A stretch of 64,000 nt of DNA from Mycolicibacterium helvum. Its GTDB lineage: Bacteria; Actinomycetota; Actinomycetes; Mycobacteriales; Mycobacteriaceae. A program made the position numbers and the translations under genes. The DNA lies in assembly GCF_010731895.1 (NCBI RefSeq), contig NZ_AP022596.1:62001-126000 (forward strand), read 5' to 3'. Below, in pieces: positions 45,346-56,623 of the stretch. Numbering within the stretch: position 1 is the first letter of the stretch; the number at the start of each line of letters is the position of its first letter. Below the pieces are notes generated by a model. The model ran no database searches. It saw only the letters and a program-made list of their open reading frames with translations, and had not been told where the DNA came from.

Positions 45346-47616
45346 TTGCAGCGTTCCACCGAGCCGACCACGGGTTCTGATGACCCGGGCAGGATGTCCA
45401 CGATCCTGCGCCATGATCTACCGGCCTCGCTGGTGGTCTTCCTGGTGGCCTTGCCGCTTTCACTGGGTATCGCGATCGCCTCCGACGCACCGGTGCTGGC
45501 CGGCCTGATCGCCGCGATCGTCGGCGGCGTGGTCGCCGGCGCGCTAGGCGGATCACCACTGCAGGTCAGCGGCCCTGCCGCCGGGCTGACGGTCATCGTC
45601 GCAGGCCTGATAGCCGAATTCGGCTGGGCGGTGACCTGCGCTGTCACCGTCTGCGCCGGACTCCTGCAGATACTGCTCGGGGTCAGCCGGGTCGGCCGTG
45701 CGGCGCTGGCGATTTCACCGATGGTGGTGCACGCCATGCTGGCGGGCATCGGTGTCACGATCGCACTGCAGCAAGTCCACGTCCTCCTTGGCGGCAGCTC
45801 CGAAAGTTCGGCCTGGCGCAACATCACCGAACTGCCCGATCAGCTCATCGCCGCCGATGGGGCCGGGTTGGCCGTCGGCTTGCTGGTGATCGGAATCCTC
45901 GTGGCGTGGCGCTGGGTCCCCGCACGGATTCGCAAAGTGCCCGGCCCGCTGGTCGCCATCGTCGTCGCCAGCGCGGTATCGGTGCTCTTCGCCTTGAACG
46001 TGCCCCGCATCCAGCTCAACGGGTCGCTGCTCGACGCCCTGCAGGCACCCGGCCTGCCGGCGGGCCATTGGGGAGCGTTCGCGACGGGCGTCATCACTGT
46101 CGCGCTCATCGCCAGCGTGGAAAGCCTGCTCACGGCCGTCGCCGTCGACCGCATGCAAGACGGTCCGCGGTCGAACCTGAACCGTGAACTTGTGGGCCAG
46201 GGTGCGGCCAATGTGGCCTCGGGCGCTGTCGGCGGACTTCCGATCACGGGTGTGATTGTGCGTAGTTCGGCCAATGTGACCGCAGGCGCCAAGACCCGTG
46301 CATCGTCAATCTTGCACGGCCTGTGGGTGCTGGTCTTCGCCCTGCCGTTCGCCGGCCTGGCCCAGCAGATTCCGACCGCGGCGCTGGCCGGTCTCCTCAT
46401 CGTCATCGGTATCCAGCTGGTCAAGCTCACCCACATCAAGACGGCCCGACGGACCGGCGACATCGCGGTCTATCTGGTGACGATCACCGGCGTGGTGTTC
46501 CTCAACCTGCTCCACGGCGTCCTGCTCGGGCTGGCGTTGGCGATCGTGCTGACCGTGTGGCGGGTGGCGCGTGCCAGGATTCACGCCCAACCCGCCGACG
46601 ACGCGGACAACGATGATTGGCGCGTCGCCGTGGAGGGGTCGTGCACGTTCTTGTCCCTGCCCCAGCTGCACAAGGCGCTGGCATCCGTGCCGCCGGGCGT
46701 GCGCGTCACGCTGGAGGTATCGGTGGACTTCATCGACCACGCCGCACACCAGGTGCTCGAGGATTGGCAGCGTCAGCACGAGGCCTCCGGCGGCAGCGTA
46801 CTGGTGCAGGAAGTCGGTTCCGTCGAGCTGCGCAGCGCGCTCACCGGTCCGCCGCAGCGCGCCTTCACGCTCATCGACAAGAGGCTCGGAGTCGTGCCGT
46901 GGAGTTCGTGGCAGGACCCGCATACCAAGAACGGCCATGAACGGCGCGATACCCCGCCTCAAGCGGTTCTCGACGGCCTGGAGGTGTACCACCGCAGGAC
47001 CGCGCCTCAGATACGCCCGCATATGGCGAAATTGGCGCATACCCATCAGGCCGAGACACTGTTCATCACGTGCACCGACGCCAGGATTGTGCCCAATGCG
47101 ATCACCAGCAGCGGCCCCGGTGACCTGTATACGGTGCGCAACGTCGGCAACCTGGTACCCGCCGATCAGCTCGACCCTTCCGTGGAAGCGGCAGTCGCCT
47201 ATGCGGTCGGCAGGTTGGCGGTGTCCTCGATAGTCGTGTGCGGCCATTCCGCTTGTGGCGCAATGCACGCCGCTTTGCGTGAGCAGGGCGTCGCCGCCGA
47301 GCGAGTGCCCGGCGAGGAACACCTGCGGTCCTGGCTCAAGTACGCACAGCCGGCTTTGGACGCCTTCGACGAAGGCCGTCACCCCATCGCCCTGTCGGCC
47401 GCTGATCAAGGATTCAACACCGTGGACCAGCTGAGCATGGTCAGCGTCGCGGTCCAGGTCGACACTCTGGTACGGCATCCACTGGTCCGTGGACCGCACG
47501 AGGAGGGCCGACTGAAGGTCGTCGGCTTGTTCTACGACATTGCCAGCGCACAGGTGCTCCACGTCGACCCGACCACCACCGCGTCGTTGCAGACCAATGG
47601 AATTGCTGTCCGATGA
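45346..47616 (+). CDS. SulP-family anion transporter fused to a beta-carbonic anhydrase (756 aa)
   Basis: Residues about 20-420 form a SulP/SLC26 membrane domain ('LPASLVVFLVALPLSLGIAIA', 'GVVAGALGGSPLQVSGPAAGL', 'GGLPITGVIVRSSANVTAGA'). An STAS-like region follows at about 425-520. The C-terminal 220 residues are a beta-class carbonic anhydrase with zinc ligands C576, H634 and C637 and the D578-R580 dyad ('CTDARI', 'CGHSACGAM'). Such fusions couple bicarbonate import with CO2 hydration; Rv3273 is a recalled relative. The start is a TTG with AGGAG 8 bases before. Confidence 0.93.
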   Translation: MQRSTEPTTGSDDPGRMSTILRHDLPASLVVFLVALPLSLGIAIASDAPVLAGLIAAIVGGVVAGALGGSPLQVSGPAAGLTVIVAGLIAEFGWAVTCAVTVCAGLLQILLGVSRVGRAALAISPMVVHAMLAGIGVTIALQQVHVLLGGSSESSAWRNITELPDQLIAADGAGLAVGLLVIGILVAWRWVPARIRKVPGPLVAIVVASAVSVLFALNVPRIQLNGSLLDALQAPGLPAGHWGAFATGVITVALIASVESLLTAVAVDRMQDGPRSNLNRELVGQGAANVASGAVGGLPITGVIVRSSANVTAGAKTRASSILHGLWVLVFALPFAGLAQQIPTAALAGLLIVIGIQLVKLTHIKTARRTGDIAVYLVTITGVVFLNLLHGVLLGLALAIVLTVWRVARARIHAQPADDADNDDWRVAVEGSCTFLSLPQLHKALASVPPGVRVTLEVSVDFIDHAAHQVLEDWQRQHEASGGSVLVQEVGSVELRSALTGPPQRAFTLIDKRLGVVPWSSWQDPHTKNGHERRDTPPQAVLDGLEVYHRRTAPQIRPHMAKLAHTHQAETLFITCTDARIVPNAITSSGPGDLYTVRNVGNLVPADQLDPSVEAAVAYAVGRLAVSSIVVCGHSACGAMHAALREQGVAAERVPGEEHLRSWLKYAQPALDAFDEGRHPIALSAADQGFNTVDQLSMVSVAVQVDTLVRHPLVRGPHEEGRLKVVGLFYDIASAQVLHVDPTTTASLQTNGIAVR

Positions 47617-48078: not shown

Positions 48079-49254
48079 TCAGTCGTCGAGCACGTCGCGC
48101 ACCACGGCGTCGGCCAGCAACCGGCCGCGGTCGGTGAGCACCAATCGGTCACCTGCGTGGATCAGCAGGCCGGAAGCCACCGCGTCGTCGGCCCGCAGTC
48201 GCTCGGAGTCGGTCAGCGCCGCAACCGGCAGCCCGGTACGCAACCGGATCTGCAGCAGGACGTTCTCGATGTGGCGGGCGTGGGCGTTGAGGCGCTCGAA
48301 CTCCGCGGCCGGCAGCTGACCACCGGCGAGCGCTTCGGCGTAAGTGCTCGGGTGCTTGACGTTCCACCAGCGGGTGTCACCGACGAACGCGTGTGCGCCG
48401 GGCCCTGCCCCCCACCACTGGCCGCCGTTCCAGTACCCGACGTTGTGCCGGCACTGCCCGTCGGGACGGCTCCAGTTCGACACCTCGTACCAGCTCAGCC
48501 CAGCCGCCGACAGCCGCTGGTCGAGCAGTTCGTAGCGGTGCGCAAGCACGTCGTCATCGGGTGCGTCGATCTCACCGCGCCGCACCCGGCGGGCCAGCGC
48601 GGTGCCGTCCTCGACGACCAGCGCATAGGCCGACACGTGGTCGACGCCGGCGGTGAGCGCCGCGTCGAGCGAGCGCAGCAGATCGTCGTCGGTCTCCCCC
48701 GGCGTGCCGTAGATGAGGTCGATGTTGAGGTGTTCGAAGCCGGCCGCCGTCGCTTCGGCGGCGGCATGCAGCGCCCGGCCCGGTGAGTGAGTCCGGTCCA
48801 GCACCGCCAACACCCGCGGCGCGACCGACTGCATGCCCAGCGATACCCGGGTATAGCCCGCGGCGCGGATCTGCGCGAAAAACTGCGGTGACGTCGACTC
48901 CGGGTTGGCCTCGGTGGTTACCTCCGCGTCGGGGGCCAGGACGAAATTGCCCCGCACCGCGTCGAGCACCTCGGCCAGTCCGGCGCCCCCGAGTAGCGAC
49001 GGTGTGCCGCCGCCGACGAACACGGTGTCGACAGGCACCGTGCCCATCAGGTCGGCGGCCAGTTCGAGCTCGGTACGCAGCGCGGTCAGCCAGCCCTGCG
49101 GGGATGCGCCGCCGAGCTCGGCGGCGGTATAGGTGTTGAAATCGCAATACCCGCAGCGGGTGGCACAGAACGGCACATGAACGTAGATGCCGAACGCCGT
49201 GCCGGGAGTCAGGACGACTTGCGGCAGGGCGGCCAGTGCGGGACGGACCGACAT
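48079..49254 (-). CDS. hemW: Radical SAM protein HemW (HemN-like, 391 aa)
   Basis: The radical SAM cluster motif CxxxCxxC is 'VPFCATRCGYCDFNTYT'. The following 'GGGTPSLL', 'EANPES', 'VSLGMQSV' and 'NIDLIYGTPGET' are typical of the HemN/HemW group. In bacteria HemW is thought to handle heme delivery rather than coproporphyrinogen oxidation; the two cannot be told apart fully by eye. The gene is recalled as Rv2388c. ATG at 49254 is chosen because longer readings enter the sulfite-reductase leader. It is divergent from the sirA leader. Confidence 0.9.
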   Translation of the reverse strand: MSVRPALAALPQVVLTPGTAFGIYVHVPFCATRCGYCDFNTYTAAELGGASPQGWLTALRTELELAADLMGTVPVDTVFVGGGTPSLLGGAGLAEVLDAVRGNFVLAPDAEVTTEANPESTSPQFFAQIRAAGYTRVSLGMQSVAPRVLAVLDRTHSPGRALHAAAEATAAGFEHLNIDLIYGTPGETDDDLLRSLDAALTAGVDHVSAYALVVEDGTALARRVRRGEIDAPDDDVLAHRYELLDQRLSAAGLSWYEVSNWSRPDGQCRHNVGYWNGGQWWGAGPGAHAFVGDTRWWNVKHPSTYAEALAGGQLPAAEFERLNAHARHIENVLLQIRLRTGLPVAALTDSERLRADDAVASGLLIHAGDRLVLTDRGRLLADAVVRDVLDD

Positions 49255-49347
49255 CCGTTCAGTGTCCCAGAGCCGACTTTTACTCACCGCGAACCAAAAT
49301 TTGTCCCGGTTAGAGCTACCGGCGCGGTTCGTGGCAGAATGGCCGGC

Positions 49348-49440
49348 ATGCCCGCCCCCCAGAACCTGCGCCCGGTGGCTCTGGTGGTTCGGCGGCATGT
49401 TGATTTCAAGCGCGTCTGTACCTGTTGTTGTCTGGCTTGA
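49348..49440 (+). CDS. Leaderless cysteine-rich leader peptide upstream of sirA (30 aa)
   Basis: This short ORF starts at ATG 49348. CAGAAT, a weak -10 with the conserved A and final T, ends 7 bases before the ATG, consistent with a leaderless mRNA. The peptide ends V-C-T-C-C-C-L-A (Cys at 24, 26, 27 and 28, all TGT codons). Leader ORFs with terminal polycysteine runs are known in mycobacteria as cysteine-sensing attenuators. Ribosome stalling on these codons when Cys-tRNA is scarce changes folding of the following RNA and raises sirA expression. An in-frame ATG at 49339 is a less likely start. Confidence 0.83.
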   Translation: MPAPQNLRPVALVVRRHVDFKRVCTCCCLA

Positions 49441-49530
49441 CGCCGTAGACCCGCCCACCTGCACTTCAGCTGGCCGCCGGATCTGCGCCGCCGGTACAGC
49501 TCACCGGTGGGCCGCGCGATTCGAACGCCA

Positions 49531-49551
49531 GCTCCTTGACATATGAGGAGC
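49531..49551 (+). promoter_or_regulatory. Hairpin sequestering the sirA ribosome-binding site
   Basis: GCTCCT (49531-49536) pairs with AGGAGC (49546-49551) around a 9-base loop. The right arm contains the GAGGAG Shine-Dalgarno of sirA, 8 bases before its ATG. Pairing would hide the site. A ribosome stalled on the cysteine codons of the leader could shift pairing upstream and free it. Confidence 0.72.
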
Positions 49552-49558
49552 ACAATTC

Positions 49559-51229
49559 ATGAGTCAGCCGACCAAAGCCGCGCCGAAACCGCGTGATGAG
49601 GGCCAATGGGCCCTGGGCAACCGCGAACCCCTCAACGCGAACGAGCAGAGCAAGAAGGACGATAACCCGCTCAATGTGCGGGCACGGATCGAGGACATCT
49701 ACGCCAAGAACGGCTTCGACAGCATCGATAAGGGTGATCTGCGGGGCCGCTTCCGCTGGTGGGGTCTCTACACCCAGCGCAAACCCGGTTATGACGGCAC
49801 CTGGACCGGTGACGAGAACACCGACATGCTCGAAGACGAGTTCTTCATGCTGCGGGTCCGCAGCGACGGCGGCGCCCTGACCACCGCGGCACTGCGCACG
49901 CTCGGCGGCATCTCGACCGAGTTCGCCCGCGACACCGCCGACATCAGCGATCGCGAAAATGTGCAGTACCACTGGATCCGGGTCGAGGACATGCCTGAGA
50001 TCTGGCGTCGGCTCGACGAGGTCGGCTTGCAGACCACCGAGGCGTGCGGTGACTGCCCCCGCGTGGTGCTGGGCTCCCCGCTGGCCGGGGAATCGCTCGA
50101 CGAGGTCATCGACGGTACCCCCGCGATCGACGAGATCGTCAAGCGCTACATCGGCAAGCCGGAGTACTCGAACCTCCCCCGTAAGTTCAAGACCGCCATC
50201 AGCGGCCTGCAGGACGTGGTGCACGAGGTCAACGACGTCGCCTTCATCGGGGTCAACCACCCCGAGCACGGCCCCGGTTTCGACCTGTGGGTCGGCGGCG
50301 GATTGTCCACCAACCCGATGCTGGGTCAGCGGGTCGGCGCCTGGGTGCCACTCGACGAGGTGCCCGACGTGTGGGAAGCCGTGGTCAGCGTGTTCCGCGA
50401 CTACGGCTACCGCCGGCTGCGCGCCAAGGCGCGGCTGAAGTTCCTGATCAAGGACTGGGGTGTAGAGAAATTCCGTCAAGTTCTCGAGACCGAATACCTC
50501 AAGCGCCCGCTGACCGACGGACCCGCGCCCGAACCGGTCACCCGTCCCATCGATCACGTCGGCGTGCAGCGGCTCAAGAACGGGCTCAACGCCGTCGGGG
50601 TGGCACCGATCGCCGGGCGTGTCTCGGGCACCATCCTGACGAAGGTCGCCGACCTGGCTGAGGCGGCCGGCTCCAGTCGGGTCCGGTTCACCCCGTACCA
50701 GAAGCTGATCATCCTCGATGTCCCCGACGACAAACTGAACGAGCTTCGCAGTGGGCTCGACGCCATCGGCTTGCCGTCGACACCCTCGCACTGGCGGCGA
50801 AACCTGATGGCCTGCACGGGAATCGAGTTCTGCAAGCTCAGTTTCGCCGAGACCCGGGTACGCGCTCAGAGCTTGGTGCCCGACCTTGAGAAGCGGCTCG
50901 AGGACATCAACTCCGACCTCGATGTGCCGGTCACGGTGAACATCAATGGCTGCCCCAACTCGTGCGCTCGGATCCAGATCGCCGATATCGGATTCAAAGG
51001 CCAGATGGTCGACGACGGCGACGGCCCGGAGGAAGGATTCCAGGTTCACCTGGGCGGCAGCCTCGGCCTGGACAGCGGTTTCGGCCGCAAGCTGCGTCAG
51101 CACAAGGTGCTCTCCTCCGAGCTCGGCGACTATATCGAGCGGCTCGTTCGCAACTTCGTGAAACAAAGACACGAAGGAGAACGTTTCGCCCAGTGGGCGG
51201 TACGAGCGGAAGAAGATGATTTGCGATGA
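49559..51229 (+). CDS. sirA: Ferredoxin-dependent sulfite reductase SirA (NirA family, 556 aa)
   Basis: The enzyme reduces sulfite to sulfide with siroheme and a 4Fe-4S cluster held by C419, C425, C465 and C469 ('ACTGIEFCKLSF', 'NINGCPNSCARIQI'). Two ferredoxin-like half-domains precede each cluster segment. Y71 ('RWWGLYTQ') and C163 ('ACGDCP') correspond to the Tyr-Cys pair reported as covalently linked in the M. tuberculosis enzyme (recalled as Tyr69-Cys161), which supports sulfite over nitrite. Its stop overlaps cysH (ATGA). Regulation by the polycysteine leader upstream is likely. Confidence 0.95.
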   Translation: MSQPTKAAPKPRDEGQWALGNREPLNANEQSKKDDNPLNVRARIEDIYAKNGFDSIDKGDLRGRFRWWGLYTQRKPGYDGTWTGDENTDMLEDEFFMLRVRSDGGALTTAALRTLGGISTEFARDTADISDRENVQYHWIRVEDMPEIWRRLDEVGLQTTEACGDCPRVVLGSPLAGESLDEVIDGTPAIDEIVKRYIGKPEYSNLPRKFKTAISGLQDVVHEVNDVAFIGVNHPEHGPGFDLWVGGGLSTNPMLGQRVGAWVPLDEVPDVWEAVVSVFRDYGYRRLRAKARLKFLIKDWGVEKFRQVLETEYLKRPLTDGPAPEPVTRPIDHVGVQRLKNGLNAVGVAPIAGRVSGTILTKVADLAEAAGSSRVRFTPYQKLIILDVPDDKLNELRSGLDAIGLPSTPSHWRRNLMACTGIEFCKLSFAETRVRAQSLVPDLEKRLEDINSDLDVPVTVNINGCPNSCARIQIADIGFKGQMVDDGDGPEEGFQVHLGGSLGLDSGFGRKLRQHKVLSSELGDYIERLVRNFVKQRHEGERFAQWAVRAEEDDLR

Positions 51230-51939
51230 GTATTGGGGTGGGTGAATTGACGGAGGCCGACCTACGGCAGCTTGCCGAGCAGGGCGCCGCCGAACTGGAC
51301 GGCGCCAGCGCGGCCGAGCTGCTGGCCTGGACCGACCAGCATTTCAGCGGCGAATACGTCGTGGCCTCCAACATGCAGGACGCGGTGTTGGTCGACATGG
51401 CAGCCAAGGTGCGCCCCGGAGTGGACGTGCTGTTCCTGGACACCGGCTATCACTTCGCCGAGACGATCGGCACCCGTGACGCGGTCGAGGCGGTCTATGA
51501 CATCCACGTCGTCAACGTCACACCCGAGCACAGCGTGGCCGAACAGGACCAGCTGCTGGGCAAGGATCTGTTCGCCAGCAACCCGACCGAGTGCTGCCGA
51601 CTGCGTAAGGTGACTCCACTGCGCACGGCGCTGCAGGGATATTCGGCCTGGGTCACCGGCATCCGCCGCGTCGAGGCGCCCACCCGCGCCAACGCGCCGC
51701 TGATCAGCTTCGACGAGGCGTTCAAGCTGGTGAAGATCAATCCGCTGGCGGCATGGACCGATGACGAAGTAGACGCCTATATCCAGGCCAACAGCGTGCT
51801 GGTGAATCCCCTTGTCGAAGAAGGCTATCCGTCGATCGGCTGCGCGCCGTGCACGGCGAAGCCGATCGAGGGCGCGGACCCGCGCAGTGGACGCTGGCAG
51901 GGTCTGTCCAAAACCGAATGCGGCCTCCACGTTTCGTGA
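51226..51939 (+). CDS. cysH: Phosphoadenylyl/adenylyl-sulfate reductase CysH (237 aa)
   Basis: CysH reduces activated sulfate to sulfite with thioredoxin. Cluster cysteines C123-C124 and C206-C209 ('ECCRLRKV', 'GCAPCTA') show the 4Fe-4S type that uses APS. The catalytic C232 is in the C-terminal 'TECGLHVS', and nucleotide-binding residues include 'LFLDTGYHF'. ATGA overlap with sirA and GTGA overlap with the next gene make a three-gene operon that goes from APS to sulfide and supplies siroheme. Confidence 0.96.
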   Translation: MSIGVGELTEADLRQLAEQGAAELDGASAAELLAWTDQHFSGEYVVASNMQDAVLVDMAAKVRPGVDVLFLDTGYHFAETIGTRDAVEAVYDIHVVNVTPEHSVAEQDQLLGKDLFASNPTECCRLRKVTPLRTALQGYSAWVTGIRRVEAPTRANAPLISFDEAFKLVKINPLAAWTDDEVDAYIQANSVLVNPLVEEGYPSIGCAPCTAKPIEGADPRSGRWQGLSKTECGLHVS

Positions 51940-56530: not shown

Positions 56531-56623
56531 TCAGCGACAACAAGCAACATCAGCAACGGCCAACGCACCGACGGCAATAAGGGCCAAAACATGGCCCTCG
56601 CCGTAACCGGTCGCCGCTTGCAT
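56531..56623 (-). CDS. Leaderless cysteine-ending leader peptide upstream of subI (30 aa)
   Basis: This short ORF starts with ATG at 56623, and TAAGCT (56636-56631) ends exactly 7 bases before it, the TAnnnT box of a leaderless mycobacterial mRNA. The peptide is hydrophobic in the middle (LALIAVGALAVADVA) and ends A-C-C-R with two TGT codons just before the stop. The subI start follows about 120 bases later. The layout mirrors the sirA leader: leaderless start, terminal Cys codons, hairpin near the next ribosome site. It therefore looks like a cysteine-responsive attenuator of the sulfate importer. Confidence 0.78.
   Translation of the reverse strand: MQAATGYGEGHVLALIAVGALAVADVACCR

Follow-up and report, generated by a model that had tools for sequence, protein, structure and literature searches.

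The sirA gene of Mycolicibacterium helvum is preceded by a cysteine-rich leader ORF of the Ms4527A family, and ribosomes stalling on it are expected to release the sirA ribosome site from a GCTCCT/AGGAGC hairpin, a reading that we hold at a probability of about 0.7. Both the stalling and the switching are inferred. The leader is already known, and its detection here chiefly adds another species to a published class; its interest lies in a sensor that is fixed and an output that is not, and in the question of how the sensor works in mycobacteria without the hairpin. The comparison of loci adds further testable questions, namely, why the last cysteine codon of the leader is always UGU while sirA nearly always uses UGC, and why the residues before the cysteine cluster are kept as protein.

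A cysteine-rich leader ORF lies upstream of sirA and cysH

The window analyzed here is a 64,000-nt stretch of the M. helvum genome (GCF_010731895.1, NZ_AP022596.1, positions 62,001 to 126,000, forward strand), and the features of the sirA locus within it are collected in Table 1. Every element named in the original prediction (CAGAAT, the 7 bases after it, the ATG at 49348, 30 codons, the cysteine-rich end, and GCTCCT/AGGAGC) is present in the sequence. The leader peptide, MPAPQNLRPVALVVRRHVDFKRVCTCCCLA, ends in C-T-C-C-C-L-A before a TGA at 49438 to 49440, and 7 nt separate CAGAAT from its start codon, which is thus placed at leaderless-type spacing to TGG-CAGAAT, as judged by spacing only and with a predicted transcript start. 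Screening the window for short ORFs (8 to 60 codons) that encode three or more Cys, including C-C or C-x-C, left this ORF as the only one with a -10-like hexamer 5 to 9 nt before the start. A pattern of TGY runs gave 998 matches in the M. helvum genome, below its reversed control, and was set aside as uninformative.

The name sirA is given by homology, NCBIfam models of nitrite/sulfite reductase and kin being matched below their cut-offs; the published ortholog is nirA/Msmeg_4527 (PMC4633059). The divergent neighbor is hemW (48079 to 49251, minus strand). Its frame stays open beyond the likely start at 49251 up to a GTG at 49464, crossing the leader (48079 to 49464, minus), and automatic annotation could stretch hemW over it. 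Farther upstream, a single ORF (45346 to 47616) combines a SulP-type transporter part with a carbonic-anhydrase part, both recognized by NCBIfam matches below cut-off.

Table 1. Features of the sirA leader region, numbered from the first base of the window
Feature	Position	Strand	Basis or remark
Extended -10-like element TGG-CAGAAT	49332..49340	+	hexamer CAGAAT at 49335-49340
Leader ORF, 30 codons plus TGA, predicted leaderless, Ms4527A family	49348..49440	+	NF042936.1, loci comparison
RRHVDFKRV segment, protein-level conservation, synonymous codons free	49390..49416	+	pN/pS 0.12
TGT-ACC-TGT-TGT-TGT, four Cys codons, all TGT	49417..49431	+	sequence
C-rich, G-poor stretch after leader stop (15 C, 6 G), possible Rho-loading site	49441..49470	+	
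AGCTGGC, 5' arm of candidate competing helix	49468..49474	+	pairing across window-type and M. avium-type sets, ensembles
GCCAGCT, 3' arm of candidate competing helix; last three bases overlap anti-ribosome-site arm	49527..49533	+	
GCTCCT, 5' arm of predicted ribosome-site hairpin	49531..49536	+	sequence, stem counts, folding
AGGAGC, sirA ribosome site and 3' arm of predicted hairpin	49546..49551	+	sequence, stem counts, folding
sirA, nirA-type sulfite/nitrite reductase, 556 aa, ATG 49559	49559..51229	+	homology
cysH, (phospho)adenylylsulfate reductase, overlaps sirA end	51226..51939	+	NF002537.0, 275.1 bits (cut-off 154)

The leader is a member of a published class

Scored as a peptide alone, the leader reaches 45.1 bits with NF042936.1 (NCBIfam Ms4527A family Cys-rich leader peptide; cut-off 45), a model that takes its name from Ms4527A, the ortholog in M. 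smegmatis, and in a six-frame genome search it reaches 43.8 bits, below the cut-off. The score is borderline; the position of the leader and its core are not in doubt. Across the order, 14 of 150 genomes pass this model and 106 of 150 contain matches at an E value of 0.001, with 0 of 14 among the controls. The model NF042934.1 (cis_reg_atten putative leader peptide; cut-off 27) is not passed by the leader, which scores 17.4 bits, or 16.2 in the genome search. At gathering score, Rfam recovers two tRNAs only in the window and no known riboswitch or leader RNA. Experimental work by Canestrari 2020 (Mol Microbiol 114:93) reportedly deals with polycysteine leaderless short ORFs upstream of cysteine-pathway operons, where stalling is said to free the downstream ribosome site.

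The leader stands directly upstream of the sirA/nirA homologue, as does the published ortholog before nirA/Msmeg_4527. Shell 2015 depicted small conserved ORFs upstream of cysA2, Rv0485, and nirA/Msmeg_4527 and speculated on cysteine attenuation (PMC4633059); Seliverstov 2005 had already put forward Cys leader peptides for the cys operons of mycobacteria as a prediction (PMC1262725). Canestrari 2020 is cited by PMC9094748 and by PMC13236596, the latter for cysteine biosynthetic genes of M. smegmatis shown to be under translation attenuation. The assignment to a known class of cysteine leaders, made in the original prediction, is borne out by the NCBIfam model, the published ortholog, the leaderless spacing, and the conserved Cys codons.

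Two other cysteine leaders were found in this genome. A two-Cys leader, MQAATGYGEGHVLALIAVGALAVADVACCR (56531 to 56623, minus), precedes a sulfate-binding gene and cysT-cysW-cysA; it lies at leaderless spacing (TAAGCT, 7 nt) and matches NF042937.1 (Ms4533A family; cut-off 31) with 45.8 bits, or 43.5 bits in a repeat search. The other, RRAVDLCRVAGCCCCCCSC, is located outside the window (G000:C1:3131335-3131388, minus; locus L228), carries six Cys in a row after RRAVDLCRV, and scores 37.9 bits with NF042934 (cut-off 27). It precedes DUF4395-like and sulfurtransferase genes, names that reflect our reading of the proteins.

The -10-like element, the Cys tract, and the residues before it are conserved

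For comparison we assembled 190 sirA loci, i.e., the window, 80 from genome records, and 109 from genomes of the genus, in which 213 of 218 genomes contain sirA and 110 of those, the M. helvum genome included, were read. Some genomes occur in both sources, and distinct-sequence counts are used where relevant. The leader search required the motif R[RL]H-x-D and a CANANT located 6 to 8 nt ahead of the start codon. By their peptide sequences and the titles of their records, we divided the loci into a window-type set, an M. avium-type set, and a third set of Rhodococcus, Nocardia and kin, and Mycobacteroides-like genomes. Two genomes of the genus (G075 and G115; single-contig, ∼3.3 Mb, 99 to 100% complete) have no sirA match at an E value of 1e-100. 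The mycobacterial-type sirA locus L030, leader included, comes from a record that bears the title of an Acidobacteria bin, probably through a binning error.

A leader was found at 189 of the 190 loci, the exception (L057) being cut by the contig end 124 bases before the match. With this near-universal occurrence, the coding part of the leader is far beyond chance. TGG-CANANT precedes all 189 leaders, a count in which CANANT at 6 to 8 nt was a search condition and TGG was not. Loss of the Cys codons had been set beforehand as the result that would tell against the leader, and no loss was seen: all 189 tracts have at least two Cys and 184 have at least three. The segment RRHVDFKRV shows a pN/pS of 0.12, and RRHVD shows one of 0.075 (uncorrected proportions from 4,000 random pairs among 147 distinct cores); the first Arg of RRH is invariant across 164 distinct segments and is written with 5 codons. 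The residues before the Cys cluster are thus held as protein, not as RNA.

The last cysteine codon is locked to UGU

Codon usage along C-x-C-C-C was counted in 159 distinct leaders, two of which lack Cys at the last position. TGT encodes the first Cys in 78 of 158 cases, the second in 123 of 130, the third in 68 of 127, and the last in 157 of 157; Cys codons beyond this block are mixed (21 TGT, 20 TGC). The lock at the last position extends to Rhodococcus, Nocardia, and kin (19/19). By comparison, 109 sirA genes use TGT for 44 of their 719 Cys codons. In the window, the leader writes each of its four Cys as TGT, and the sirA gene contains TGC six times and TGT not once. Mycobacteria generally have a single tRNA-Cys, with a GCA anticodon, and wobble reading of UGU may raise the sensitivity to loss of charged tRNA; a local RNA constraint is another possible origin of the bias.

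The ribosome-site hairpin is a feature of one clade

Five window-type loci without a recognizable ribosome motif were excluded from the stem counts, the partner-swap test, and the window-type fold. One further window-type row (L080), whose RNA resembles the M. avium type, was excluded from the covariation tests and from the folding of 64 leaders described below, and kept in the stem counts, the partner swaps, and the window-type fold. Of 102 window-type sequences, 83 can form a stem of at least 6 bp on the ribosome site, where 21.0 would be expected according to shuffles. The other two sets do not exceed chance, with 5 of 39 in the M. avium-type set (4.0 expected) and 3 of 28 in the remaining set (7.2 expected). 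The hairpin therefore cannot be the general output of the leader, since two groups that bear the leader show no excess of it, and as judged from these sequences it is a clade feature confined to the window type, across whose 102 sequences it is clearly conserved.

In the window's sequence alone, the hairpin is only modestly beyond chance, with 79 of 2,000 dinucleotide shuffles giving an equal or better ribosome-site stem. The best predicted fold contains it in 4 of 30 window fragments, and in one fragment the fold with the hairpin forced has −50.9 kcal/mol, compared with −53.1 for the best fold. The repeat around the sirA ribosome site that the original prediction had pointed out is thus there, and conserved within the window type; the covariation proposed as its check in other mycobacteria turned out to be nil in the window-type set, where 644 of 1,000 shuffles reach the pairing observed.

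A competing helix has moderate comparative support

A consensus fold of 58 mixed sequences (RNAalifold) yielded 3 pairs with an energy near zero, and we therefore used group-wise tests. The candidate helix AGCTGGC:GCCAGCT takes three bases of the 5' arm of the hairpin. In 106 window-type sequences it is 97.1% paired with little variation; 49 of 1,000 shuffles reach this pairing and 78 of 1,000 reach its pair types, a marginal covariation. Among M. avium-type sequences, whose 3' arm has diverged strongly, pairing stands at 77.2%, a value that none of 2,000 shuffles reaches, and the helix's own partners there outscore all 300 partner swaps (14.6 versus at most 14.2); its pair types are not above shuffles (1848/2000), and its GGCA:UGCC columns are 86.4% paired, with 62 of 2,000 shuffles reaching that figure. 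These comparisons, with controls that carry no correction for relatedness, lend the competing helix moderate support.

Several other pairings were tried and rejected. Direct pairing of the Cys tract with the ribosome site, suggested by the fold of one locus (L056), did not outperform partner swaps in any group, and its GTCTCC:GGAGAC columns reach 69.1% pairing, a level matched by 2,000 of 2,000 shuffles. CGTAGA:TCTGCG is 96.6% paired in the M. avium-type set with no covariation. A helix between the Cys tract and the downstream hairpin, GCTGTCTG:CGGACAGC, is 93.8% paired in the window-type set, also with no covariation; we do not claim it, since we estimate that chance would give an 8-bp match somewhere in a leader this long. 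A local hairpin, CCACCTG:CAGCTGG, which would use the 5' arm of the competing helix, is 71.1% paired in the window-type set (6 of 1,000 shuffles reach this) and 80.6% paired in the M. avium-type set (3 of 2,000), and was left unclaimed for its probability of at most 0.17 in the window.

A ribosome is predicted to shift the fold in long fragments of the window, with no general shift across leaders

Hairpin and competing helix are mutually exclusive in the ensembles of 30 window fragments, with probabilities that sum to nearly one. The whole leader followed by 52 or 82 nt of sirA forms the hairpin with a probability of 0.96 or 0.91, respectively; in ten fragments with the same ends that begin at 49417 or later, the hairpin falls to 0.10 or less and the helix rises to 0.89 or more. 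With three shorter 3' ends the shift is weaker or absent (0.37 to 0.80 free, up to 0.61 behind a ribosome), and at one shorter end the hairpin is more probable behind the ribosome (0.46) than in the free leader (0.37). The sirA start codon itself is in a small stem in the fold with the competing helix.

We extended this folding to 64 window-type leaders, the window included, that have at least 82 nt of sirA and a stem of at least 5 bp. On average, the hairpin has a probability of 0.77 in the free leader and of 0.73 when a ribosome occupies either the last Cys codon or the stop (0.76, 0.72, and 0.70 for the three states with the longer end), and from free to stalled this probability falls by more than 0.1 in 12 leaders and rises in 6 (11 and 5 with the longer end). 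As modeled, the fold shift of the window is not general, and a stalled ribosome is not told apart from a terminating one by folding. The cost of opening the ribosome site in 80 leaders is 4.9 kcal/mol in the free state, 5.0 and 4.7 in stalled states, and 4.4 with a terminating ribosome (4.4, 3.8 and 3.9, and 3.8 kcal/mol in the window). This model with ribosome footprints left stalled and free states unseparated over the 80 leaders and was discarded.

The original prediction had held that the full mechanism, from stalling codons to ribosome-site hairpin, was visible at this locus. That claim goes too far: a ribosome stalled on the Cys codons misses the hairpin, which begins 99 nt after the last of them, and an intermediate is needed that the prediction did not name. 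Moreover, the mean over 64 leaders hardly shifts, the opening cost modeled over 80 leaders is not lowered by stalling, and two groups show the hairpin no more often than chance.

Proposed mechanism and alternative explanations

According to our model, the leader is likely translated as a leaderless ORF from 49348. When cysteine suffices, the ribosome would complete the leader and depart, the RNA would refold, and the sirA ribosome site would be masked by the hairpin. Under a shortage of charged tRNA-Cys, the ribosome would stall at the four UGU codons and hold the leader RNA, AGCTGGC:GCCAGCT would win, and the ribosome site would be less hidden. The predicted outcome is more SirA and CysH, leading to more sulfide for cysteine synthesis. 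Since the hairpin lies ∼100 nt past the Cys codons, stalling must act via an intermediate structure, for which the competing helix is the best candidate. The M. avium type, Rhodococcus, and Nocardia probably combine the same sensor with another output, because the hairpin was not found there above chance.

That other route might be early termination. No terminator-like site was found between 49200 and 49700, and the locus does not fit a classical transcription attenuator; Rho could instead load on the C-rich RNA after the stop once the leader is finished, with a stalled ribosome covering or crowding the site. The 30 nt after the stop are C-rich in the window-type, M. avium-type, and remaining sets (mean C of 0.43, 0.43, and 0.47; n = 107, 39, and 28) and G-poor (mean G of 0.21, 0.20, and 0.23), the groups that lack the hairpin included. 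Rho has also been proposed for mycobacterial cys leaders in an account that saw no conserved terminator hairpins, and that itself calls the Rho prediction weak (PMC1262725). However, composition alone is weak evidence, and Rho would leave the conservation of the ribosome-site hairpin in the window type unexplained; as the explanation for the sirA leader we regard it as doubtful. Control by the nascent chain, with RRHVDxKRV in the upper exit tunnel aiding the stall of an arrest peptide tuned by Cys-tRNA, seems similarly unlikely to us. It would fit the low pN/pS of the segment (0.12), the invariant first Arg with its 5 codons, and the RRAVDLCRV that precedes the Cys run of the leader before the DUF4395-like and sulfurtransferase genes. 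The cysteine leader of the sulfate transporter, MQAATGYGEGHVLALIAVGALAVADVACCR, lacks the motif, however, which indicates that the class does not need RRHVDxKRV.

It is also conceivable that GCTCCT/AGGAGC is a DNA operator or a chance repeat and that the leader merely couples ribosomes to sirA, with no sensing of cysteine. The element is indeed an inverted repeat, and in the single sequence 79 of 2,000 shuffles match it, but the repeat contains the ribosome site itself, the Cys cluster and UGU bias are conserved in all groups, and the leader stop does not overlap the sirA start, the gap being 118 nt in the window and at least 102 nt in all 189 loci. We therefore consider this explanation highly improbable. 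Stalling that frees the ribosome site from the hairpin remains our preferred reading for sirA. Beyond it, we tentatively suggest, as a possibility short of even odds, an ancient sensor with swappable outputs, in which a fixed RRHVDxKRV and a UGU-locked stall module would be common to Mycobacterium, Rhodococcus, and Nocardia, the hairpin and the competing helix would belong to one clade, and Rho would perhaps serve elsewhere.

Comparison with known systems

The literature searched, which did not include Canestrari 2020, makes no mention of the UGU lock or of the clade limit of the hairpin. The polycysteine leaderless ORFs of Canestrari 2020 reportedly share with the sirA leader that they are leaderless, polycysteine, and upstream of a cysteine-pathway operon; the switch between AGCTGGC:GCCAGCT and GCTCCT:AGGAGC is a proposal of this analysis for sirA. 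The candidates of Seliverstov 2005 are likewise short ORFs upstream of mycobacterial cys operons, with runs of Cys codons close to their stop, and that paper notes no conserved hairpin that could serve as a terminator and suggests Rho (PMC1262725). Translation attenuators that occlude the Shine-Dalgarno sequence are based on the same idea, namely, that stalling in a uORF relieves occlusion of the downstream ribosome site (PMC13236596). In contrast to these, pairing between a uORF tract and the ribosome site is not general here, and the stalled ribosome would stand ∼100 nt away from the hairpin. The closest relative is the Ms4527A leader that M. smegmatis and M. tuberculosis carry ahead of sirA/nirA, with the same downstream gene, core, leaderless spacing, and terminal Cys cluster; there is essentially no difference from this family, of which the window's leader is a member at the edge of the cut-off that ends in CTCCCLA.
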